From Cyclobacteriaceae bacterium (GTDB lineage Bacteria > Bacteroidota > Bacteroidia > Cytophagales > Cyclobacteriaceae), in NCBI GenBank assembly GCA_016787725.1, contig JAEUTZ010000008.1, positions 1 to 48,926 of the forward strand: DNA of 48,926 nt, read 5' to 3'. Under the pieces are notes generated by a model that was given only the letters and a program-made list of their open reading frames with translations, had not been told where the DNA came from and did no database searches. The stretch's first letter is position 1. The number at the start of each line of letters is the position of its first letter. This document shows, piece after piece, positions 10,707 to 27,777 of this stretch. Position numbers and translations under genes: made by a program.

Positions 10707-12593
10707 ATGGATAAAATCATTGAACACCTGGAGGAAGTAACCGTTCGCTTTGCTGGCGACAGCGGAGACGGCATGCAACTGATTGGCACGCAGTTTAGCG
10801 ACACCGCAGGTTTTGCCGGCAATGAAGTCAACACGTTTCCCGACTATCCTTCCGAGATCCGGGCACCCGAGGGAACACTCTATGGGGTAAGCGCCTTTCA
10901 GGTGCACTTCGGTACCAAAAACATTCATACTTCGGGTGACTTCGTAGACGTATTGGTGGCCATGAATGCGGCCAGTCTGAAAGTGAATCTGCCGCATGTA
11001 CGCGAGCAAGGGTTACTGATTCTAAACACCGAAGGTTTTGATGACCGCAACCTGAAGTTAGCCGGGTATGCAGGTAATCCCTTAACCGACAACACGCTGA
11101 GTAAGTACACGGTCGTGCCGGTGGAGATGAACAAAGAATTAAAGAAAGCCTTCATTGAAGTGGATGTACCTTCCAAACTGGTGCAGAAGACACGCAATAT
11201 CTTTGCCCTTGGCATCACCTACTGGCTTTTCAACCGGCCCCTGGAAGCTACGGTCAGCTGGATCAATAAGAAGTTCAAAGGCAAAGAAGACGTAATTCTT
11301 GCCAATGTACATGCGCTGCAAGGTGGCTGGAACTTTGCGGATAAGAATCCGGATTTTCGCAAACAATTCATCATTGATAAATCGCAACTGCCACCCGGGA
11401 AGTACCGCAGCATTACGGGCAACCAGGCCGTGGCGCTTGGCTTGGTTGTGGCCGCTACCAAGGCGAAGCTTCCCTTGTTCCTCGGGTCGTACCCGATAAC
11501 ACCGGCTACGGACATCTTGCATGCAATCTCAGGATATAAAAAATATGGTGTCAAACATTTACAAGCCGAAGATGAAATTGCCGGCATAGCCAGCGCCATT
11601 GGTGCCGCCTTTGGCGGAAGTCTGGCGGTAACTACCACGAGTGGACCCGGACTCTCTTTAAAGAGTGAAGCCATCGGTCTTGCTATCATGACCGAACTCC
11701 CATTAATTATTGTGGATGTGCAACGGGCAGGTCCTTCCACCGGCTTACCGACCAAAACTGAACAAAGTGATTTGATGCAGGCCATGTATGGCCGGCATGG
11801 TGAAGCCCCGATGCCGGTGTTGGCAGCCGCCAGTGCGGCAGATTGTTTTGAAATGACTCTGGAAGCAGCCCGGATTGCATTGAAGTATATGACACCGGTA
11901 ATGTTGTTAAGCGATGGTTACATCGGCCAGGCTTCGGAACCGTGGCGCATCCCGGAACTTGACAAGCTGCCGGAAATAGCCCCGCGCTTTGCCGAAGACG
12001 CAGCAACGTTTAAACCCTACCTCCGCAATCCGGACACCTTGAGCCGGCTGTGGGCCATTCCGGGTATGCAAGGCATGGAGCACCGGATTGGCGGATTAGA
12101 AAAAGAAGATGGTAGTGGTGTAGTGAGTCATGACCCGATGAATCACCAGAAAATGGTCGAGCTGCGTCAAAAGAAAGTGGATGGCATTGCCAACGACATT
12201 CCCGAATTGGAAATTATTGGTGAACAACAGGGAGATCTGCTCTTATTGAGTTGGGGCAGTACATTTGGAGCCGCAAAAACTGCGTTTGAACATCTTACCG
12301 CGCAAGGCCACACCTTGTCATTTGCGCACCTGCGGTACCTGAATCCCTTCCCTAAAAACCTGGGCGATGTATTGAATCATTTCGACCGGGTGGTGATCCC
12401 GGAGTTAAATCTGGGGCAATTAAAGAATCTGATCCAGGCCAGGTACATGAAACGGATTATGGGCATCAACAAAGTGCAGGGCAAACCATTCAAATCCATC
12501 GAGCTGGAAGAAAAACTGCGGGTGCTCATTAACATGCGCGACATCAAGAAGTGGCCCGCCAATAAAAAAGTTGATTTACCTGTTGACCTGTAA
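10707..12593 (+). CDS. korA: 2-oxoglutarate:ferredoxin oxidoreductase, alpha subunit (gamma-alpha fusion)
   Basis: This encodes 628 aa. The N-terminal gamma domain (1-190) has VRFAGDSGDGMQLIGTQFS, NTFPDYPSEIRAPEGT and the FGTKNIHT region. The alpha domain (about 215-590) begins GNQAVALGLVVAATKAKLP with SYPITPATDILH and the TTTSGPGLSLKSEA motif. With KorB it decarboxylates 2-oxoglutarate to succinyl-CoA using ferredoxin or flavodoxin, or runs in reverse for carbon fixation. It is cytosolic. Substrate could also be another 2-oxoacid; KorAB is favoured by the fused gamma-alpha form. korB follows after 6 bp, so the two are co-transcribed. Confidence 0.93.
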   Translation: MDKIIEHLEEVTVRFAGDSGDGMQLIGTQFSDTAGFAGNEVNTFPDYPSEIRAPEGTLYGVSAFQVHFGTKNIHTSGDFVDVLVAMNAASLKVNLPHVREQGLLILNTEGFDDRNLKLAGYAGNPLTDNTLSKYTVVPVEMNKELKKAFIEVDVPSKLVQKTRNIFALGITYWLFNRPLEATVSWINKKFKGKEDVILANVHALQGGWNFADKNPDFRKQFIIDKSQLPPGKYRSITGNQAVALGLVVAATKAKLPLFLGSYPITPATDILHAISGYKKYGVKHLQAEDEIAGIASAIGAAFGGSLAVTTTSGPGLSLKSEAIGLAIMTELPLIIVDVQRAGPSTGLPTKTEQSDLMQAMYGRHGEAPMPVLAAASAADCFEMTLEAARIALKYMTPVMLLSDGYIGQASEPWRIPELDKLPEIAPRFAEDAATFKPYLRNPDTLSRLWAIPGMQGMEHRIGGLEKEDGSGVVSHDPMNHQKMVELRQKKVDGIANDIPELEIIGEQQGDLLLLSWGSTFGAAKTAFEHLTAQGHTLSFAHLRYLNPFPKNLGDVLNHFDRVVIPELNLGQLKNLIQARYMKRIMGINKVQGKPFKSIELEEKLRVLINMRDIKKWPANKKVDLPVDL

Positions 12594-12599
12594 CGTCCT

Positions 12600-13649
12600 A
12601 TGAAAACAATCATCGATCAAATCCTGGAGAAGCCGCACGTTGGTGCTTCTTCACTTACTTCCAAAGATTTCAAACCGGATGTGGACGTGCGGTGGTGTGC
12701 CGGTTGTGGTGCTATTTCCGTGTTGTCTCCGGCCCAGCGCCTGATGCCCGATCTGGGTATTCCTAAAGAGAAAATAGTTTTTGTCTCCGGCATTGGCTGC
12801 TCTGGCAGGTTTCCTTATTACATGGACACCTATGGCTTTCACGGAATTCACGGCCGGGCCCTCCCCATTGCCAGTGGACTAAAAATTGCCCGCCCCGACT
12901 TAAGTGTCTGGGTGGTAACCGGGGATGGCGATAACATGAGTATTGGCGGAAATCATTTCATTCATGCGTGCCGGAGAAATGTGGATATGAATGTATTAAT
13001 GTTTAATAACGAAGTGTACTCCCTTACCAAAGGTCAGTACTCTCCTACTTCACACCGCGGACAGATCACCAAATCATCACCCCTGGGGGCATTGGATGAT
13101 CCCTTCAATCCGGTTGCGCTGGCCTTGGGTGCCAGTGCTACGTTTGTAGCGCGGGGGCACGATAAAGACCGTACGCAATTGCAACAATTATTATTGAAAG
13201 CCCATCAACACAAGGGATTTTCCTTTGTTGAAATCTATACCAACTGCCGGATCTTCAACGATGGGGCCTTTGATCTTTACACCAACGGAGAAACCCGTGA
13301 GGATCACACCGTGTGGCTGGAACATGGTAAGCCCCTGGTGTTTGGCAAGAAAAAAGATAAGGGTATTAAGTTGGATGGCTTTACTCCTATCATCATAGAA
13401 TTAAGGGAAGGCGGTCAGAGCATCAACGATGTGTTGGTGCACAATGAAAAAGACTCTACACTGGCCTTTATCCTGGCAAACATGACGTATTCCGAAACTT
13501 TGCCCCGACCGATGGGTGTTTTACAAAACCTCGAACGCAGTTCGTATGAGGAACGGGTGGTTGAGCAGATACAGCACGAAGTGGAAACCAAGGGCATCGG
13601 CAACCTGGAAAGCTTATTGTTGGGCGGCAGTTATTGGGAAGTGAGGTAA
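12600..13649 (+). CDS. korB: 2-oxoglutarate:ferredoxin oxidoreductase, beta subunit
   Basis: This encodes 349 aa. It carries the TPP-binding motif VVTGDGDNMSIGGNHF and the cysteines for the single [4Fe-4S] cluster: WCAGCG near the start, GIGCSGRFP and the late TNCRIF. There is no separate ferredoxin (delta) subunit or domain, so electrons leave from this one cluster. It is the partner of KorA, with the ATG 7 bp after the korA stop. The C-terminal tail (about 300-349) is a KorB-type extension. Confidence 0.93.
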   Translation: MKTIIDQILEKPHVGASSLTSKDFKPDVDVRWCAGCGAISVLSPAQRLMPDLGIPKEKIVFVSGIGCSGRFPYYMDTYGFHGIHGRALPIASGLKIARPDLSVWVVTGDGDNMSIGGNHFIHACRRNVDMNVLMFNNEVYSLTKGQYSPTSHRGQITKSSPLGALDDPFNPVALALGASATFVARGHDKDRTQLQQLLLKAHQHKGFSFVEIYTNCRIFNDGAFDLYTNGETREDHTVWLEHGKPLVFGKKKDKGIKLDGFTPIIIELREGGQSINDVLVHNEKDSTLAFILANMTYSETLPRPMGVLQNLERSSYEERVVEQIQHEVETKGIGNLESLLLGGSYWEVR

Positions 13650-18223: not shown

Positions 18224-19219
18224 TTATCTCTTTTGCTTTACTTCGCCATACCGGGGTTCCTTCGCATACCGGTTGATCATCGGCACAAAGGCATTCATGA
18301 TCAGAATGGCAAACGAAACTCCTTCAGGATAATTTCCAAACAACCGGATCAACACAGTGAGCACACCAATCCCTACTCCGAAGATCAGCATCCCGCGATG
18401 GGTAAAGGGCGAAGTCACATAATCAGTCGCCATAAAAACGGCTCCCAACATGACGCCCCCGGTAAGCACATGGAACAACGGATTGGCAAACTTAGCCGGA
18501 TCAATCAACCAAAAGATGCCAGTCATGATCACCACCGTTAATAACATGGACACGGGAATATGCCAGGTGATAATTTTTCGGTACAGCATATAGATTAATC
18601 CCAACAGCAAGGCAAAAGCCGACATCTCCCCCAGACTGCCGCCCTGAAACCCGAAGAAAATATCCACATAGGATGGCATTTGATTCAACAAGCTATCCAT
18701 TGACTCGCCTGCCCGCATGCCATCCTTTAAAATACCAAGGGGTGTAGCACCTGTAACAGCATCCAACGACCAGGAACCTGCCTGGGGCCAATGGGTCATG
18801 GGCACCGGAAACGATAACAATAAAAATACGCGTCCCACCAAAGCAGGATTAAAAGGATTGTTGCCCAGTCCGCCAAAACTCATTTTGCCGATGCCGATGG
18901 CCACCGCACTTCCAATCAAAATAATGTACCACGGGAGATTGCTGGGAACATTAAACGCCAACAACAAACCCGTGATGATGGCGGAACCGTCATGGATGCT
19001 GGCTGGTTTCTTCAATAGGTATTTGACTATGGCGTATTCGATGCCCACACAGAAAATAACTGCCAGGCCCGTAACATACAGCGCTCCTAAACCAAAATTG
19101 TAAATAGAAAAAGCCAGGGCGGGCACCATGGCAATAATAACTCCCCGCATGATCTGCGGTACCGTCAATTCTGAATGAATGTGCGGTGAGGGTGATACGG
19201 TGAGGAGTCCGGTGCTCAT
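18224..19219 (-). CDS. rnfD: Rnf complex membrane subunit RnfD
   Basis: This encodes 331 aa, a polytopic NqrB/RnfD-type protein. The covalent FMN motif SLDAVTGATPLG is present, together with FGGLGNNPFNPALVGRVFL and the late ATDYVTSPFTHRG motif. The start overlaps the rnfC stop as ATGA (4 bp), and rnfG follows after 2 bp. It forms the ion channel region with RnfA and RnfE. Confidence 0.96.
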   Translation of the reverse strand: MSTGLLTVSPSPHIHSELTVPQIMRGVIIAMVPALAFSIYNFGLGALYVTGLAVIFCVGIEYAIVKYLLKKPASIHDGSAIITGLLLAFNVPSNLPWYIILIGSAVAIGIGKMSFGGLGNNPFNPALVGRVFLLLSFPVPMTHWPQAGSWSLDAVTGATPLGILKDGMRAGESMDSLLNQMPSYVDIFFGFQGGSLGEMSAFALLLGLIYMLYRKIITWHIPVSMLLTVVIMTGIFWLIDPAKFANPLFHVLTGGVMLGAVFMATDYVTSPFTHRGMLIFGVGIGVLTVLIRLFGNYPEGVSFAILIMNAFVPMINRYAKEPRYGEVKQKR

Positions 19220-20553
19220 GCTTTCTTTGGTTTACGCAATTGGGTTTTGCCCAACCGAATGTAATCCAGAATGGGTCGGTTGGAAGGACAGACAAAGGAA
19301 CACGAGCCACACTCAATACAATCCAAAATGTGTTCTTCCTTAGCACGGGAATGGTTGCCCTTCTTGGAGAGAATCAGCAGACGATAGGGTTCCAGGCCCA
19401 TGGGGCACGCCTCAATACACTTGCCGCAGTGCAGACAATTATATACTTCAGCCCGGGTTGATTCCTCTTTTGGTATTAACAAGATCCCCGAGGTTCCCTT
19501 GGCAATTGGCACATCCAGATCGGCAATTGCTTTCCCCATCATGGGGCCACCACTTACAATTTTGCCGGTATCCTCAGGTACGCCCCCGGCTGCAATCAAT
19601 AGGTCGATTACGGGTGTTCCAATGCGTACCAGGAAGTTGGACGGCTGCTTGACCGATTTCCCGGTAACGGTAACTACCCGTTCAATCAAGGGCTTATTTT
19701 TCTGAACAGCCTCATAAATCGCATAGGTGGTGCCTACATTATGAACAATCACACCTACATCGGAAGGCAATCCACCCGAAGGAACTTCCCGGTTCAACAA
19801 GGCCTGAATCAATTGCTTCTCTCCGCCTTGCGGATAATGCACCTCCAAAGCCGCTACGGCAATGCCTTGTTCGTGTTGCAACAGTTTTTCAAAAAGCTCA
19901 ACAGCATCGTGTTTATTATCTTCAATACCGATGATGGCTTGCTTAACGCCCAGGGCCGTCATCAGAATTTTAATGCCCACCAGAATCTCCCGCGATTTCT
20001 CCAGCATGATACGATGATCGGCCGTGAGGTAAGGTTCACACTCCACGCCATTGATGATCAGGTAATCAACATGCTTCCCCTCCGGTACACTCAATTTAAC
20101 ATGGGCGGGAAAAGCGGCCCCGCCCATCCCCACTACGCCTGCTTCCATAATGCAGGCAACAATCTCTTTCGAATCCAATTTGATCTCCTCAATTAATGTA
20201 TCGCTGCGATCAACGGTTTCCATCCAATCATCCCCCTTTACCCGGATGTTGACGGCCATGTGCTTGAAGCCGGAACTATCCATGGTTTCTTCAATAACCC
20301 CGATGCGCCCGGACACGGAGGCATGAATATTCGAAGAAACAAATCCTTCATGAACGGCAATCACCTGCCCTACTTTTACACTATCACCCCTTTGCACCAC
20401 AATTTTTGCAGGCGCACCGATGTGTTGCGTGATGGGAATGGTTACGGTTTTTGGTAGTGGTAAGGGTGTAATGGGCGCCTGCGCGGAGAGTTTCTGATCG
20501 TCAGGATGTACCCCGCCAAGGCGGAACGTCTTAAGCTTGTGGTGCAGTGCCAT
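19216..20553 (-). CDS. rnfC: Rnf complex subunit RnfC (NADH/FMN and 2[4Fe-4S])
   Basis: This encodes 445 aa from the ATG at 20553 (MALHHKLKTFRLGG). A longer frame exists only with a TTG start. Domains in order: N-terminal barrel-sandwich region, the NADH/FMN Rossmann-like part (GMGGAAFPAHVKL, INGVECEPYLTADHRIM), the SLBB domain (about 270-345) and two clusters, CLHCGKCIEACP and CIECGSCSFVCP (about 373-425). It takes electrons to NAD+ in the cytosol. It overlaps rnfB by 23 bp and rnfD by 4 bp. Confidence 0.95.
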   Translation of the reverse strand: MALHHKLKTFRLGGVHPDDQKLSAQAPITPLPLPKTVTIPITQHIGAPAKIVVQRGDSVKVGQVIAVHEGFVSSNIHASVSGRIGVIEETMDSSGFKHMAVNIRVKGDDWMETVDRSDTLIEEIKLDSKEIVACIMEAGVVGMGGAAFPAHVKLSVPEGKHVDYLIINGVECEPYLTADHRIMLEKSREILVGIKILMTALGVKQAIIGIEDNKHDAVELFEKLLQHEQGIAVAALEVHYPQGGEKQLIQALLNREVPSGGLPSDVGVIVHNVGTTYAIYEAVQKNKPLIERVVTVTGKSVKQPSNFLVRIGTPVIDLLIAAGGVPEDTGKIVSGGPMMGKAIADLDVPIAKGTSGILLIPKEESTRAEVYNCLHCGKCIEACPMGLEPYRLLILSKKGNHSRAKEEHILDCIECGSCSFVCPSNRPILDYIRLGKTQLRKPKKA

Positions 20554-21478
20554 TGCCTTGTTGTTTAGCAGCTTCCGCTGCAAGTTTCTCTTCTTCTTTT
20601 TTCTTCCGGGCCCGTTCTTCCCGCTTCAACCGTTGTTCATTGGCTGCCTGGATTTTCTCGGGGGTTACGTTGGCCGTAATGATATTATGCACATCGCACG
20701 TGTCGACACACTCCATGCAGAGTTTGCATTTATCCGGATCAATGATCGCCAGGCTATTGCGCATGGTAATGGCATCGTACCGGCAGGCTTCGAAACATTT
20801 GGCACAACCCGAACAGGCTACCGAGCATTCTTTTCGGGCTGAACTTCCTTTCTCTTCGTTCAGGCAGGCTACATAAACGCGCTGGTTTTTCTTCCCCTTC
20901 GGCCAAAGCTCCAGAATTCCTTTAGGACATTCCTTGACACAAGCATTGCAAGCCGTACACTTATCTTCAATCACTACCGGAAGTCCGGTTTTGGGATCCA
21001 TGTACATGGCTTCGAAGTCGCAAACCTCCACACAATCGGCCATGCCAAGGCAACCGTAGGCACAACCTGTGTCTCCGCTGTATAATGCAGCCGCTATCTT
21101 ACAGGATTCTGTACCGTCATAGATATTGGTTTTCTTGCGATGCTCGAAGGAGCCTGAACACCGTACCACCGCAATATAAGGATCGCGCTCAACGGCTTTA
21201 ATACCCAGAATCTCTGCGACTTGTTTCATTACTGCATTGCCACCCACCGGGCAGTGTAACTCAGACAAGTCACCGGCAGCAACCACGGCTGTTGCAAATG
21301 CATGGCAACCTGGTTGACCACAGCCGCCACAATTGGTACTCGGTAGCACTTGCTCCACCTTGCCAATCCGGTCATCTTCCTTTACCTCAAACTTCTTTGA
21401 GACAAAATAGATAACCCCTGCTGCGATGATACCGATCGCGGTTAACGTGAGGATAGTATATAAAACAACGGGGTTCAT
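20531..21478 (-). CDS. rnfB: Rnf complex ferredoxin-like subunit RnfB
   Basis: This encodes 315 aa. One N-terminal membrane helix is followed by the CGGCGQPGCHAFA cluster motif. The body carries further 4Fe-4S motifs: CTACNACVKECP, CSGCAKCFEAC and CKLCMECVDTCD. The Lys/Glu-rich tail ends in a linker (KREERARKKKEEEK). It is the electron entry point from ferredoxin or flavodoxin. The start overlaps the RseC-like gene as ATGA. Confidence 0.95.
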   Translation of the reverse strand: MNPVVLYTILTLTAIGIIAAGVIYFVSKKFEVKEDDRIGKVEQVLPSTNCGGCGQPGCHAFATAVVAAGDLSELHCPVGGNAVMKQVAEILGIKAVERDPYIAVVRCSGSFEHRKKTNIYDGTESCKIAAALYSGDTGCAYGCLGMADCVEVCDFEAMYMDPKTGLPVVIEDKCTACNACVKECPKGILELWPKGKKNQRVYVACLNEEKGSSARKECSVACSGCAKCFEACRYDAITMRNSLAIIDPDKCKLCMECVDTCDVHNIITANVTPEKIQAANEQRLKREERARKKKEEEKLAAEAAKQQGNGTAPQA

Positions 21479-21879
21479 CGACTAACTATTTCCATTTTAC
21501 ATTGATTATGAAACGATTTCCGGATCCCATAGAGAAAAAGAAAATACGGAACCAGAATCAGCAAGGCCCCAAGACCAGCCGAACTCTCCGAATAACCCAA
21601 ACGCAGCACGATTATTAATGTAAGTAACATCAAAAGAAACGGCACCAGGTATAATAAAACAACGGCTGTGTACCCGGAAGCCGGATTGATTCGCACCACT
21701 ACCTCCTCACCCGCCTTGAATTGCGAGGAACCAGAAATCACCACTTCCTTGGCCTTTGACTCACCCAGCATGCACAAACTTTTATGGCAGGCAGAACATC
21801 CTGACCCTACCAGCGAGATTTTCATTCGCCCGTTGTTATTTTCCGTTACCAGGCCAATATGTTCCATCGCTTTTGTCAT
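21475..21879 (-). CDS. rseC: RseC/SoxR-reducing-system-like membrane protein
   Basis: This encodes 134 aa. The N-terminal part has a Cys cluster (GSGCSACHKSLCMLGESK) and the C-terminal part two membrane helices (YTAVVLLYLVPFLLMLLTLIIV and the following ALLILVPYFLFLYG), the RseC layout. In Bacteroidota and others, RseC homologues lie directly before rnfB and probably help assembly or a redox side reaction of the complex. Overlaps both neighbours by 4 bp (ATGA). Confidence 0.85.
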   Translation of the reverse strand: MTKAMEHIGLVTENNNGRMKISLVGSGCSACHKSLCMLGESKAKEVVISGSSQFKAGEEVVVRINPASGYTAVVLLYLVPFLLMLLTLIIVLRLGYSESSAGLGALLILVPYFLFLYGIRKSFHNQCKMEIVSR

Positions 21880-22940
21880 ACTAGTGATTCTTGCGAGCGA
21901 ATGCGCTTGCGAACAGGATGTTTTTCCAACATGTATAAACTCGTCCGCACAATCTCTCCCATCGACCTACACTCCATAAAGGAATTGTCTTGATAGAGTT
22001 CCGCCAGTTCGGTCTTTAGTTGCGTTGTATTTTCCGGAGTAGACAGTGTATCGTTTGACATGGAGGTTAAGAGTGAGTTAAGTTGACCGTAGGAAGTGAG
22101 CACCCGGTTGCGCAGCCGCATGCGTTCCTCGCGTTGGTATTGCAATTCGATGACCGGAGACATGGATTTGAATCCGAGATCAATGATTGGATTGTTTTCC
22201 TTGAAATACTGAGGCATGTAAATCCGGCTACTGCCCTCATACGCTTCCTGATCGAAGTCAATGGAACGGAGCCGGAAATGAAGTTCGTCAAAGTCAGGAA
22301 TAATTTCCACTACAAAATTATCCCTGCGCATATCGCCCAGCAATTGAACCAGGCTGCGTTCATTAAACTTCACAAACTCCTTTGCAATCCGTAAAGGATT
22401 GTAGTCATGTTTTTCCAACAGGTAATGATGAATGAAAGTATCTCCCGGAATGCCTTGAATATGCTCTTCGATAAAAGTATCACCTTTGGTCAGGTAATTG
22501 ATTTTGTTGGGCGACAAGAGGTGTTCCAGTTCCATGCCGTACACACGCGAAGCATCGGCTTGTTTGATGTAGAAATAGTCAAACAGATCATTCAACCTGT
22601 TAACGATCCGGATCCGGAAGGGATGGGTATTGGCATACAGGCAGTAATCTACGCGATCAATAAAAAGGTGGTCGATTACGGATGTATCGCCACCTACTTT
22701 CAGTTGCGCGTAGACTTTTCTCAGCCCTTCATGAATAAAGTCCCGATCTGACTCGGAATAGATAAGCGTTTCCCACAGCGTATCCGAACCCTTCTTATCA
22801 AAGAGGGTCACCGAGCTATTGAAGTGTAAAAGATCCTGATAGGTAATCGGTGCATCAATTTCCCGATTCGTAACCGTAAGGTACGCCCGTAACGAATTAC
22901 TGATGGGAAATATTGGCTTCTTAAACCGAATACCAGCCAT
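21876..22940 (-). CDS. unknown protein with protein-kinase-like catalytic motifs
   Basis: This encodes 354 aa; no family was recognised by name. In order it shows a beta-strand Lys (YFYIK, K126), an acidic helix (VYGMELEHLL, E137/E139), a hinge-like strand FIEEHIQGIPGD (158-167), LGDMRRDNFV (D203 and N208, exactly the D-x4-N spacing of the kinase catalytic loop) and SIDFD (D228, DFG-like) 20 residues later. This is the order and spacing of kinase and aminoglycoside-phosphotransferase folds. The usual catalytic-loop His is Leu here. The C-terminal part (260-354) is helical. No signal peptide or membrane segment is present. The gene overlaps the RseC-like gene as ATGA and follows flavodoxin by 10 bp, so it is co-expressed with the Rnf complex. 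A pseudokinase is also possible. Confidence 0.6.
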   Translation of the reverse strand: MAGIRFKKPIFPISNSLRAYLTVTNREIDAPITYQDLLHFNSSVTLFDKKGSDTLWETLIYSESDRDFIHEGLRKVYAQLKVGGDTSVIDHLFIDRVDYCLYANTHPFRIRIVNRLNDLFDYFYIKQADASRVYGMELEHLLSPNKINYLTKGDTFIEEHIQGIPGDTFIHHYLLEKHDYNPLRIAKEFVKFNERSLVQLLGDMRRDNFVVEIIPDFDELHFRLRSIDFDQEAYEGSSRIYMPQYFKENNPIIDLGFKSMSPVIELQYQREERMRLRNRVLTSYGQLNSLLTSMSNDTLSTPENTTQLKTELAELYQDNSFMECRSMGEIVRTSLYMLEKHPVRKRIRSQESLV

Positions 22941-24549: not shown

Positions 24550-27500
24550 TTAGGGTTGAACTTCGGATAAATGCTGGATGTCTTTTGTGCGTTGCTCATT
24601 GTCTTTCTTCGCCAATTCCGTCAGTCGTGCAGCCTCATTCGGATTGGAAAGGTTGAGCGTCTTATAGCGAATTTCTTCTTCGAGATAATCTTTGAATGGA
24701 ACTGCCTCTTCAAGTTGGGGAACATCCCATGTAAATGGATTCTTGCCCTCCGCCCGCAAATCAGGATTGAAGCGATACATCGGCCAATAGCCACTTTTCA
24801 CGGCCTTTTCGGATTGTTTCTTGGCCAACTTCATATCATAGCCATGAGCAATGCACGGTGAATAAGCGATGATGATGGAAGGACCTTGGTGTTTCTCGGC
24901 TTCCACAAAAGCCAGCGCAGTCTTCTCACGATCCATACCCATGTTAACCACGGCCACGTAGGCATTTCCATAGGTGGTCATCATCAACCCCAGGTTTTTC
25001 TTACTTAGCTTCTTGCCATCGGAAGCAAACTTCGCTACCGCACCCCGGGGTGTTGCTTTGGAGGCCTGACCTCCGGTATTCGAATAAACTTCGGTGTCCA
25101 TGACCAGAACATTCACATTTTTATTGGAGGCCATTATATGATCCAGTCCGCCAAAGCCAATATCATAGGCCCAGCCATCACCACCAAAAATCCAAACGCT
25201 CTTATCAACAAAGTAATCCTGCAATTCAATCACCTTATCAAGCAGTACGCGTACGTCTTTGTTGCCCGAACTGCGTTTGTGCTCTTCTTCCAGCAGTTGC
25301 TTGATCACATCGGCATGGTCCTTGGTTTCATTGTTAACCCGATCAAAATTCATCAATCCCTTTTCGAGTGCCTGCTGCAATTGCAGATTGTTCAGCAAGG
25401 GTATCAGGTTTTGAACATTCGTCTTTAATTGCTTGCGGTTTGAATCCACCGCTAAGCGCATCCCGAAACCAAATTCGGCATTGTCTTCGAACAGCGAATT
25501 TGCCCAGGCAGGTCCACGACCTTTTTTGTCTTTTGTATACGGTGTGGTAGGGAATGTTCCTCCATAAATAGAGGTACATCCGGTGGCGTTGGCAATCAAC
25601 ATCCGGTCTCCAAACAACTGGGTGACCAGGTGGATATACGGTACCTCGCCACAGCCTGAACAACTTGGCGGATACTCCAGGTACGGCTCTGCACTGTTGG
25701 GTTCTTGTACAAAGGAAAGTTTTTCAACCCAGGTAGCCGGATTCCCGGGCACACCGCGGTACTCGAGCTTCTTGGTTCCGGTGGGCACTGCGCCATTCAA
25801 CGGCATTCGTGAAACGGGTATTGAGTCTCCTTTCAATCTTAGAATTGGATCTACTACCTGTTTCGCAAAGTCATCGGAATCTGGTGGAACGACATCGGTG
25901 ATTTCAGCGAACTTTTCGGCTTCCGTAGGAATGGGTACCTCCACAATAGCTTGGCAGGTAACATCAATGGCTTTCCAGTTCATTTCAACAATTTCCTTTC
26001 CCTTCCGGGCAAACTGCTTTTCAACGTACTTCTTGATTAAGGCAATGGCTTCTTCGGCTGGAACCACTCCGGATACCTTAAAGAAGGCCGTTTGCATGAC
26101 AGAGTTAATGCGGCCGCCCAGCCCCACGCTCTTCGCGATCTTCGAGGCATCGATGGCATACACTTTTATTTTCTTCTTCCAGATGGTTTCCTGCATGTCG
26201 CGGGTAAACAAGCGGAAAATATTTTCAGGCTTTTGACTGCTGTTGATCAGGAAGGTGCCACCTTCGGTAATTCCCTCCAGAATGTCATACTGCCCTATGT
26301 ATTGCGGCCGGTGTAGTGCTACAAAGTCAACTTTGTTCAATAAATACTCCGATTGAATCGGTTTTTTCCCAAAACGCAGGTGCGAAACAGTATAGCCACC
26401 CGATTTATTGGAATCGTATTGGAAGTACCCTTGAACATACAAGTCGGTACTCTCCCCAATGATCTTAATTGAATTCTTATTTGCGCTCACCGTTCCATCC
26501 GAACCATAGCCCCAGAACTTGCAGCGAACTACGCCCTCCTGCTCCGTGTCAATTTCTTCTTTTACCGGAATTGACTTATGCGTTACGTCATCATTGATAC
26601 CCACCGTAAAGCCATGCCAGCCATTGTTATCCAAATGATCAAAAACAGCTTTTACCATCGAAGGTGTAAACTCCTTGCTGGAAAGTCCGTAGCGGCCGCC
26701 AATGATCTGAATTTCAGGGCGTGACCGAAGCGCAGCTACTACATCCAGAAACAGGGGCTCACCTAATGAACCAGGTTCTTTCGTGCGGTCCAGCACGGCA
26801 ATTTTCTTAACTGTTTTAGGAATCACTTCAAGAAAATCCTCCAAGGCAAACGGTCTGTATAGTCTCACTTTCACTGCGCCTACTTTCTCGCCCTGCTTTT
26901 GCAAGTAATTGATTGTTTCTTCAATCGTGTTGATCGAAGATCCCATGGAGATCAGGAGTCTGGTGGCTTTGGGATCGCCTACATATTCATAGAGTTTATA
27001 ATTACGGCCGGTTTTTTCACCCAACAGTTGCATGTATTTTTTTACAATGGCCGGGCATTCATCATAGTACTTGTTTACCGTCTCTCGCCCCTGGAAGTAA
27101 ACATCGGGATTTTGAGCGCCTACCTTACACACCGGATCTTCCGGGCGCAACGCCAGCTTGCGGAAGGCCTCCACATCTTTCATGTCGAGCATTTCACGCA
27201 ACGTTGTATAGTCAATAGGTTTAATTTTTTGAATAGAATGCGAAGTACGGAAGCCATCGAAGAAGTGAAGAAAAGGAATCCTGGATTCCAGGGTAGCGAG
27301 GTGCGAGACCACCGCCAGGTCCTGTGCCTCCTGAACGTTGCCTGATGCTAACAGTGCAAAACCGGTACCCCGGGTAGCCATTACATCCGAATGATCGCCA
27401 AAAATGGAAAGCGCCTGGCACGCCAGCGACCGAGCGGATACGTGAAAGACAGTTGGGATCATTTCGCCCGCGATCTTGAACATATTCGGCACCATGAGCA

Positions 27501-27777
27501 TCAGGCCTTGTGATGCGGTGAACGTAGTGGACATCGCTCCGCCCGAAAGCGAACCGTGGATGGCGCCTGCCGCACCGCCTTCCGATTGCATCTGAACAAC
27601 ATCCACGCGCTCACCAAAAATATTCTTGCGCCCCTCGGCCGACCAGGCATCGGCTTTCTCGCCCATGTCCGAAGAAGGGGTGATGGGGTAAATCGCAGCG
27701 ACTTCGCTGAAGCCATAGGCGATGTTGGCAACGGCAGAGTTGCCATCGGTATTGATAAAGGCAGGTTGATTTTTCAT
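24550..27777 (-). CDS. nifJ: pyruvate:flavodoxin/ferredoxin oxidoreductase lacking the ferredoxin domain
   Basis: This encodes 1075 aa. Pyruvate plus CoA is oxidised to acetyl-CoA and CO2. The N-terminal domain I (DGNSAVANIAYGFSEVAAIYPITPSS), domains II-IV and the TPP domain VI (GGDGWAYDIGFGGLDHI) are intact, including the proximal cluster cysteines CSGCGE, ANATGC and YSPCIAHGY. The usual family length is near 1170-1190. The missing ~100 residues are domain V, the 2[4Fe-4S] ferredoxin part. In this protein GTKKLEYRGVPGNPATWV, which normally leads into the first CxxCxxC motif, runs straight into the strand before CSGCGE (around residue 680). No CxxCxxCxxxCP motif remains. Start is ATG 27777; it is the first gene of the flavodoxin-Rnf operon. 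Confidence 0.93.
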   Translation of the reverse strand: MKNQPAFINTDGNSAVANIAYGFSEVAAIYPITPSSDMGEKADAWSAEGRKNIFGERVDVVQMQSEGGAAGAIHGSLSGGAMSTTFTASQGLMLMVPNMFKIAGEMIPTVFHVSARSLACQALSIFGDHSDVMATRGTGFALLASGNVQEAQDLAVVSHLATLESRIPFLHFFDGFRTSHSIQKIKPIDYTTLREMLDMKDVEAFRKLALRPEDPVCKVGAQNPDVYFQGRETVNKYYDECPAIVKKYMQLLGEKTGRNYKLYEYVGDPKATRLLISMGSSINTIEETINYLQKQGEKVGAVKVRLYRPFALEDFLEVIPKTVKKIAVLDRTKEPGSLGEPLFLDVVAALRSRPEIQIIGGRYGLSSKEFTPSMVKAVFDHLDNNGWHGFTVGINDDVTHKSIPVKEEIDTEQEGVVRCKFWGYGSDGTVSANKNSIKIIGESTDLYVQGYFQYDSNKSGGYTVSHLRFGKKPIQSEYLLNKVDFVALHRPQYIGQYDILEGITEGGTFLINSSQKPENIFRLFTRDMQETIWKKKIKVYAIDASKIAKSVGLGGRINSVMQTAFFKVSGVVPAEEAIALIKKYVEKQFARKGKEIVEMNWKAIDVTCQAIVEVPIPTEAEKFAEITDVVPPDSDDFAKQVVDPILRLKGDSIPVSRMPLNGAVPTGTKKLEYRGVPGNPATWVEKLSFVQEPNSAEPYLEYPPSCSGCGEVPYIHLVTQLFGDRMLIANATGCTSIYGGTFPTTPYTKDKKGRGPAWANSLFEDNAEFGFGMRLAVDSNRKQLKTNVQNLIPLLNNLQLQQALEKGLMNFDRVNNETKDHADVIKQLLEEEHKRSSGNKDVRVLLDKVIELQDYFVDKSVWIFGGDGWAYDIGFGGLDHIMASNKNVNVLVMDTEVYSNTGGQASKATPRGAVAKFASDGKKLSKKNLGLMMTTYGNAYVAVVNMGMDREKTALAFVEAEKHQGPSIIIAYSPCIAHGYDMKLAKKQSEKAVKSGYWPMYRFNPDLRAEGKNPFTWDVPQLEEAVPFKDYLEEEIRYKTLNLSNPNEAARLTELAKKDNEQRTKDIQHLSEVQP

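Follow-up and report, generated by a model that had tools for sequence, protein, structure and literature searches.

A single-chain NifJ without domain V in Cytophagales, encoded beside a flavodoxin gene that may supply its electron acceptor

Introduction

KorAB of Mycobacterium tuberculosis is an OFOR with a single cluster. It consists of a fused alpha/gamma subunit plus a beta subunit, and was reported to be stable in air (PMC2773412). According to the structural account in PMC5020499, domain V of Desulfovibrio africanus PFOR is a built-in ferredoxin with a medial and a distal cluster. The Sulfolobus tokodaii enzyme StOFOR, as described there, is missing domain V and has the proximal cluster as its sole cluster; it is built of two subunits, one with domains III, I and II fused and the other with domain VI, and has no domain IV. 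In the S. tokodaii StOFORs a large pocket has the sole cluster close to its surface, and an external ferredoxin has been modelled there at the CxGC loop, with contacts named as this loop and the residues at +1 and +6 from its first cysteine (PMC5020499).

What the two extra clusters of PFOR do, and whether a flavodoxin can be served by the proximal cluster on its own, is difficult to deduce by comparing enzymes that are unlike in every respect. Among the matches listed in a search of open-licence PMC papers, none described a NifJ without domain V in its title or the opening of its abstract. Here we analyse such a protein, encoded in a window of 48,926 nucleotides (the whole stretch of DNA examined) from a Cyclobacteriaceae bacterium.

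Results and Discussion

Domain organization of NifJ

The nifJ gene of the window (24550..27777, minus strand) is one uninterrupted ORF with an ATG start, encoding 1075 aa. Both the length and the absence of a frameshift had been stated in an earlier sequence-only reading. The assignment draws on the ORF, Pfam, TIGR02176 and alignment with solved structures. Five Pfam domains were found in the one chain, namely POR_N, PFOR_II, POR, EKR (domain IV) and TPP_enzyme_C, and there was no Fer4 match at E 0.001; the domain-V homologue L065 has the same five domains plus Fer4 models. The NCBIfam model TIGR02176 matched in two stretches with a score of 1505.5 bits versus a cut-off of 911.35. A family model that scores the deleted form so far above its cut-off can hide the loss of a domain.

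Among the PFOR structures, we take 1b0p and 7plm to be from Desulfovibrio and 6cin from Moorella. The window protein aligned with 7plm in two blocks (query residues 8-686 with chain residues 6-687, and 695-1071 with 801-1167), between which lie 113 chain residues versus 8 query residues; this gap is domain V. According to the alignment, its site in relatives is occupied here by a 22-residue linker (residues 684-705; 25663..25728, minus strand) between W683 and C706, and the 24 residues at positions 683-706 include one cysteine, C706. The previously proposed span of the loss, 25640-25830 (approximately residues 650-713), covers this junction; the place of the loss had been given correctly.

The proximal-cluster ligands were located by alignment as C706 and C709 of the C706-x-x-C709 motif (25651..25662), C734 of ATGC (25576..25578) and C975 of SPCIAHG (24853..24855), all on the minus strand, and each aligned with an identical cysteine in 6cin and 7plm. 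Together with the five Pfam domains, this bears out the earlier description of domains I-IV and VI and the proximal-cluster cysteines as intact. From the sequence it is close to certain that domain V has been lost together with its eight cluster cysteines and that domains I, II, III, IV and VI are kept; a single-chain NifJ carrying ligands for the proximal cluster alone is well supported.

The protein thus shares with NifJ/PFOR (TIGR02176; 1b0p, 7plm, 6cin) the single chain, the domain order I-II-III-IV-VI and the proximal-cluster cysteines, but where those enzymes have domain V with two [4Fe-4S] clusters it has the 22-residue linker, and a flavodoxin gene lies close by. With StOFOR it would share, judging by its residues, the missing domain V and the sole proximal cluster (PMC5020499), although StOFOR has two subunits and lacks domain IV, whereas the window protein is a single chain with EKR. 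KorAB of M. tuberculosis is likewise two-subunit, unlike the window protein, which would arrive at the same one-cluster state by loss of domain V. A single chain with domain IV may work like KorAB or StOFOR, but is not one of them.

The AlphaFold model of NifJ was of middling quality (pLDDT 70.4, pTM 0.63), and its pLDDT falls below 50 at residues 697-710, which makes it uninformative on the pocket.

Homologues with and without domain V

The homologues compared were 77 distinct rows of one alignment, each spanning 800 residues or more, after shorter or repeated rows had been dropped. The stretch from residue 683 to 706 inclusive was 24-25 residues long in 32 rows and 120-139 in the other 45, with no intermediate lengths; the 45 domain-V rows have 8-10 cysteines in it. 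All 32 deleted-form rows come from Cytophagales. An assembly deletion in this one genome was considered and is refuted: nothing was found in its favour, and the same junction is present in 32 distinct homologues, most of them from other assemblies. The check in relatives suggested by the sequence-only reading therefore turned out in favour of a genuine loss, and the probability of an assembly artefact is negligible.

C706 is the sole cysteine of the 683-706 stretch in 23 of the 32 deleted-form rows, the window protein among them. The other nine (L078, L082, L051, L014, L011, L013, L079, L080 and L081) have 1-3 extra linker cysteines, for example at positions 693 and 705. They fall in the branches of L011, L013, L014 and L051 and in family f19. 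No CxxCxxC pattern was present among the extra cysteines of these nine rows; a further metal or redox site is possible in these branches, given the residues alone.

Residues at the exit site were compared between the 32 deleted-form and 43 domain-V rows, with L018 and L126 excluded. Over the whole chain, 14 positions were fixed differently at the 90% level, and three of them (699, 716 and 661, the last a change from D to N) are at the exit site or the linker edge. Position 716 is H in 32/32 deleted-form rows and K in 43/43 domain-V rows, and position 699 is Y in all 32 versus L in 42 and M in one. The linker residues K686 and F689 are present in every deleted-form row. In 25 of the 32, T712 is replaced by V; by position, residue 712 corresponds to the +6 contact residue of StOFOR. 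These changes fit a reworked docking site, and they would suit more than one carrier.

The excluded rows are a mirror image of the deleted form: the NifJ-like proteins L018/L125 (G083:C152) and L126 (G076:C5) keep domain V with 8 cysteines, but of the four proximal-cluster cysteines three have disappeared. Their frames are 1154 and 1145 aa long, they sit on long branches, and their TIGR02176 scores are still above the cut-off. Another short protein, the 1144-aa NifJ of a Firmicutes MAG (L076, 4374-7805, plus strand), was considered as a further domain-V loss and rejected, since both Fer4 motifs are kept; it is shorter before approximately query residue 860. Many genomes of the family also encode giant proteins that resemble PFOR, approximately 1550-1690 aa in length and equipped with POR, Fer4 and TPP domains (for example L166, 786-5675, minus strand, and L167, 1413-6059, plus strand). 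They are approximately 27-30% identical to NifJ where they match, and long stretches of them have no Pfam name.

Distribution and origin of the loss

Three overlapping genome samples were searched. Among 98 genomes of the same family, nine carried the deleted form, six the domain-V form (two of them odd, of the L018/L126 kind), while in 83 no high-similarity match to either was found. Of 292 genomes sampled from the order, 13 had a match at E 1e-100; nine of these were deleted-form, in two families. A strong match (E 1e-100) was found in 213 of 395 Bacteroidota genomes, and a hit across the junction in four, all of the same family. Repeated independent loss was not seen in these 395 genomes by a test that losses split over contigs would escape. 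At the cut-offs applied, three of the four other genomes sampled from the genus gave no nifJ match; even close relatives, then, do not all carry the gene. Two records labelled Thalassovita and Thalassobius (L050 and L059) carry the Cytophagales operon, and their names are probably wrong.

A careful tree was built from 33 rows, 16 of them deleted-form, with junction columns excluded and the root drawn at the midpoint. A branch with 100/100 support separated all 16 from the rest, and a single change was required in every one of 200 bootstrap trees (100%). The deleted form was likewise one clade in a quick tree of 51 rows. It is surrounded by domain-V enzymes from Cloacimonadota, from Fidelibacterota and from MAGs labelled as Minisyncoccota or Bacillota, so domain V was lost a single time, and it lies apart from the other Bacteroidota enzymes sampled. 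Perhaps the deleted-form nifJ was acquired from outside the phylum, a reading of the tree that we infer from this placement.

The nearest domain-V enzymes, L065 and L070 (Cloacimonadota), L072 (Fidelibacterota) and L074 (Bacillota MAG), are 64-66% identical to the query over approximately residues 8-686, yet they keep domain V, which the window NifJ does not have. No flavodoxin, DHOD-like or U354 gene was found in their examined flanks. Single-chain enzymes that are this similar over domains I-IV yet differ in having domain V or not offer a way to test what that domain contributes to electron output, choice of carrier and sensitivity to air. In a sample of 199 genomes from the phylum of G751, the genome of L072, 80 genomes had a match, and the same test gave no junction-crossing hit in any of them. 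The hits in G784, G949 and G796 stop well before the junction, and the G784 fragment clusters with the domain-V L072, to which it is 96% identical.

The deleted form could in principle be catalytically impaired or a decaying gene. That NifJ may be dispensable is suggested by the lack of a match, at the cut-offs applied, in three of the four other genomes sampled from the genus and by six matches to PF00676 in its own genome; we take PF00676 to be the E1 dehydrogenase family, to which pyruvate dehydrogenase belongs, and NifJ is therefore probably not the only route from pyruvate. However, pN/pS was 0.087-0.203 for nifJ (five relatives) and 0.063-0.136 for the flavodoxin gene (three relatives), with pS of at least 0.76, and 0.086-0.133 for the DHOD-like gene and 0.136-0.189 for U354 (three comparisons each), pS being at least 0.73 over all four genes. 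Such low ratios indicate purifying selection on genes in use. In addition, the cluster cysteines and T33, E66, R116 and N900, presumably catalytic positions by comparison with the D. africanus enzyme, are retained in all deleted-form rows that span these positions. Impairment or decay is accordingly very improbable.

Gene neighbourhood

All genes of the nifJ operon lie on the minus strand. A DHOD-like (dihydroorotate dehydrogenase-like) protein of 347 aa (NF005741; 23495..24538) is encoded 11 bp downstream of nifJ and is followed by a long-chain flavodoxin of 169 aa (TIGR01752; 22951..23460; Pfam and NCBIfam), two genes downstream of nifJ as the earlier reading had it. Next is U354, a conserved protein of 354 aa (21876..22940) without a Pfam match at E 0.001. 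Spacings among these four genes are 10-34 bp. Beyond U354, with gaps of 1-2 bp or overlaps, are genes for an RseC-like protein (PF04246; 21475..21879), the polyferredoxin RnfB (20531..21478; Pfam and NCBIfam), RnfC (19216..20583), RnfD (TIGR01946; 18224..19219), RnfG (TIGR01947; 17634..18221), RnfE (TIGR01948; 17054..17653) and RnfA (TIGR01943; 16480..17052). The listed TTG start of rnfC overlaps rnfB by 53 bp, and the true start is probably further in. A promoter scan gave 17 sites, compared with 17.8 expected, and was uninformative.

A two-gene 2-oxoacid:acceptor oxidoreductase, KorA-KorB (10707..13649, plus strand), is encoded outside the nifJ operon here; neither KorA nor KorB had a Fer4 or EKR match. 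Elsewhere in the window, an ORF on the minus strand (832-1323) consists of repeats of GTYLHRSITRTHRL or a near variant.

Conservation of this arrangement was followed in 60 loci with profiles built from the deleted-form clade (E 1e-5). Seven loci were dropped: L117, on the same contig as L051; L073 and L075, whose nifJ pieces end short of the junction; and four without downstream flank, the deleted-form L122 and L061, L064 and L123, which are domain-V or cut before it. This left 30 deleted-form loci with at least 2 kb downstream and 23 domain-V loci with at least 1.5 kb. The order nifJ, DHOD-like gene, flavodoxin gene was found in 30/30 deleted-form loci, although these descend from one event and amount to one lineage keeping a pair, not to 30 independent tests. 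U354 comes next in 27 of them and is missing in L118, L119 and L120. Flavodoxin and U354 were each found in 0/23 domain-V loci at E 1e-5, where profiles made from the deleted-form clade could miss a distant flavodoxin.

Further downstream, the deleted-form loci have Rnf (15), KorAB (7) or neither within the flank examined (8). The flavodoxin gene stays near nifJ while the other partners vary, and its presence in the 15 loci without Rnf in the flank examined means that it is not simply travelling with Rnf.

The nearest gene downstream of nifJ encodes another flavoprotein. The DHOD-like protein could itself be the immediate acceptor, complexed with NifJ, with flavodoxin as the second step. In all 30 deleted-form loci its gene is directly downstream of nifJ, nearer than that of flavodoxin. 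However, 6 of the 23 domain-V loci also have a more distant DHOD-like gene (37-40% identical) beside nifJ. The pairing thus exists independently of whether domain V has been lost, and we consider this role for the DHOD-like protein improbable.

Electron carriers and proposed mechanism

In its own genome, the operon flavodoxin is the sole PF00258 match. For the count in the 98 family genomes, a flavodoxin was taken to be a PF00258 match with E <1e-15, in a frame of 150-195 aa, that spans profile positions 1-139 or more. Exactly one such flavodoxin was present in each of the nine deleted-form genomes, close to nifJ in eight; the ninth, G069, has its nifJ on a 3.7-kb contig and its flavodoxin on a different one. 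Four of the six domain-V genomes had a flavodoxin, on a different contig from nifJ, as did seven of the remaining 83 genomes (contig aside).

We consider it probable that this is a one-cluster, single-chain NifJ whose proximal cluster passes electrons directly to flavodoxin in the vacated pocket of domain V. Domain V was lost once, in an ancestor of a Cytophagales lineage, which would leave one [4Fe-4S] cluster per chain. Pyruvate and CoA would be turned over as in other PFORs, and electrons would leave TPP singly through the proximal cluster. Flavodoxin would then dock in the pocket once filled by domain V and take the electrons directly. In the loci with Rnf, flavodoxin could exchange electrons with the complex, forward to NAD+ or backward for pyruvate synthesis; perhaps, then, flavodoxin hands on to Rnf in half of the loci. 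Flavodoxin potentials can be reached from a cluster at -545 mV. This is the value given for the cluster of StOFOR1 (PMC5020499). Direct transfer from the proximal cluster to flavodoxin had already been proposed from the sequence; the conserved neighbourhood now lends it support, but the step itself is still one that we infer, and a free ferredoxin-like protein could accept the electrons.

Such a protein is the main rival to direct transfer. An external 2[4Fe-4S] ferredoxin may dock at the site of domain V, with flavodoxin as a low-iron alternative or serving another partner. A PF12838 search of the same genome, with genes named by eye, found a free two-cluster ferredoxin-like gene of approximately 119 aa on another contig, outside the operon, and a second ferredoxin-like gene that adjoins apparent multi-subunit 2-oxoacid oxidoreductase genes. 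Docking of this kind has been modelled for S. tokodaii (PMC5020499), and in other Bacteroidota an account of iron shortage describes fldA going up and ferredoxin down (PMC10434189). Against this, the deleted-form loci share no neighbouring ferredoxin gene with the CxxCxxCxxxC motif, whereas the flavodoxin gene is found in 30/30. Searches for the exact motif, which other spacings would escape, returned RnfB and RnfC alone in the window, and only RnfB/RnfC and one 582-aa ORF in L040 near 31 deleted-form loci. Transfer of domain V to a separate local gene was therefore set aside for the window and these 31 loci, as far as this exact motif can reveal it. The separate ferredoxin gene that the earlier reading had asked about is thus not found conserved beside nifJ, rnfB and rnfC excepted, but a free one exists elsewhere in the genome. 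Taking these points together, we regard an external ferredoxin acceptor as rather unlikely, though less so than a DHOD-like acceptor.

If direct transfer to flavodoxin is right, a built-in wire has been swapped for a detachable, iron-free carrier. A wider picture is more tentative, and taken as a whole it is somewhat doubtful: a flavodoxin-dependent one-cluster NifJ, with flavodoxin in the socket of the lost domain, that is convergent with the one-cluster OFORs of aerobes, cheaper in iron, perhaps tolerant of air and possibly controlled by U354. A change in oxygen sensitivity had been suggested in the sequence-only reading; by analogy with the KOR of M. tuberculosis, which was reported to be air-stable, air tolerance of the deleted-form NifJ would be a fair hypothesis.

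The conserved protein U354

The conserved stretches of U354 (K126, GDMRxDNF and IDFDQ) recall, to our eye, a kinase active site. A profile of 20 sequences had no PDB sequence match up to E 10, and there was no kinase family among the 14 Pfam families weakly matched up to E 1 by 20 U354 members. The AlphaFold model was weak (pLDDT 64.1, pTM 0.62), with pLDDT below 50 for residues 161-257, which include the putative catalytic loop. In a Foldseek search with this weak model, the best 50 of 1516 hits were nearly all kinases or kinase complexes; the best E-value was 0.019, and none reached 0.001. There are thus weak signs of a kinase-like fold, as far as the model goes, and a role as putative regulator is possible.

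A U354 homologue (61%) was also observed at L019 (G004:C186, positions 2-640), upstream of a nifJ fragment at the contig end. In G004, the end of nifJ on another contig shows the domain-V split, and U354 may thus belong to NifJ systems more widely.
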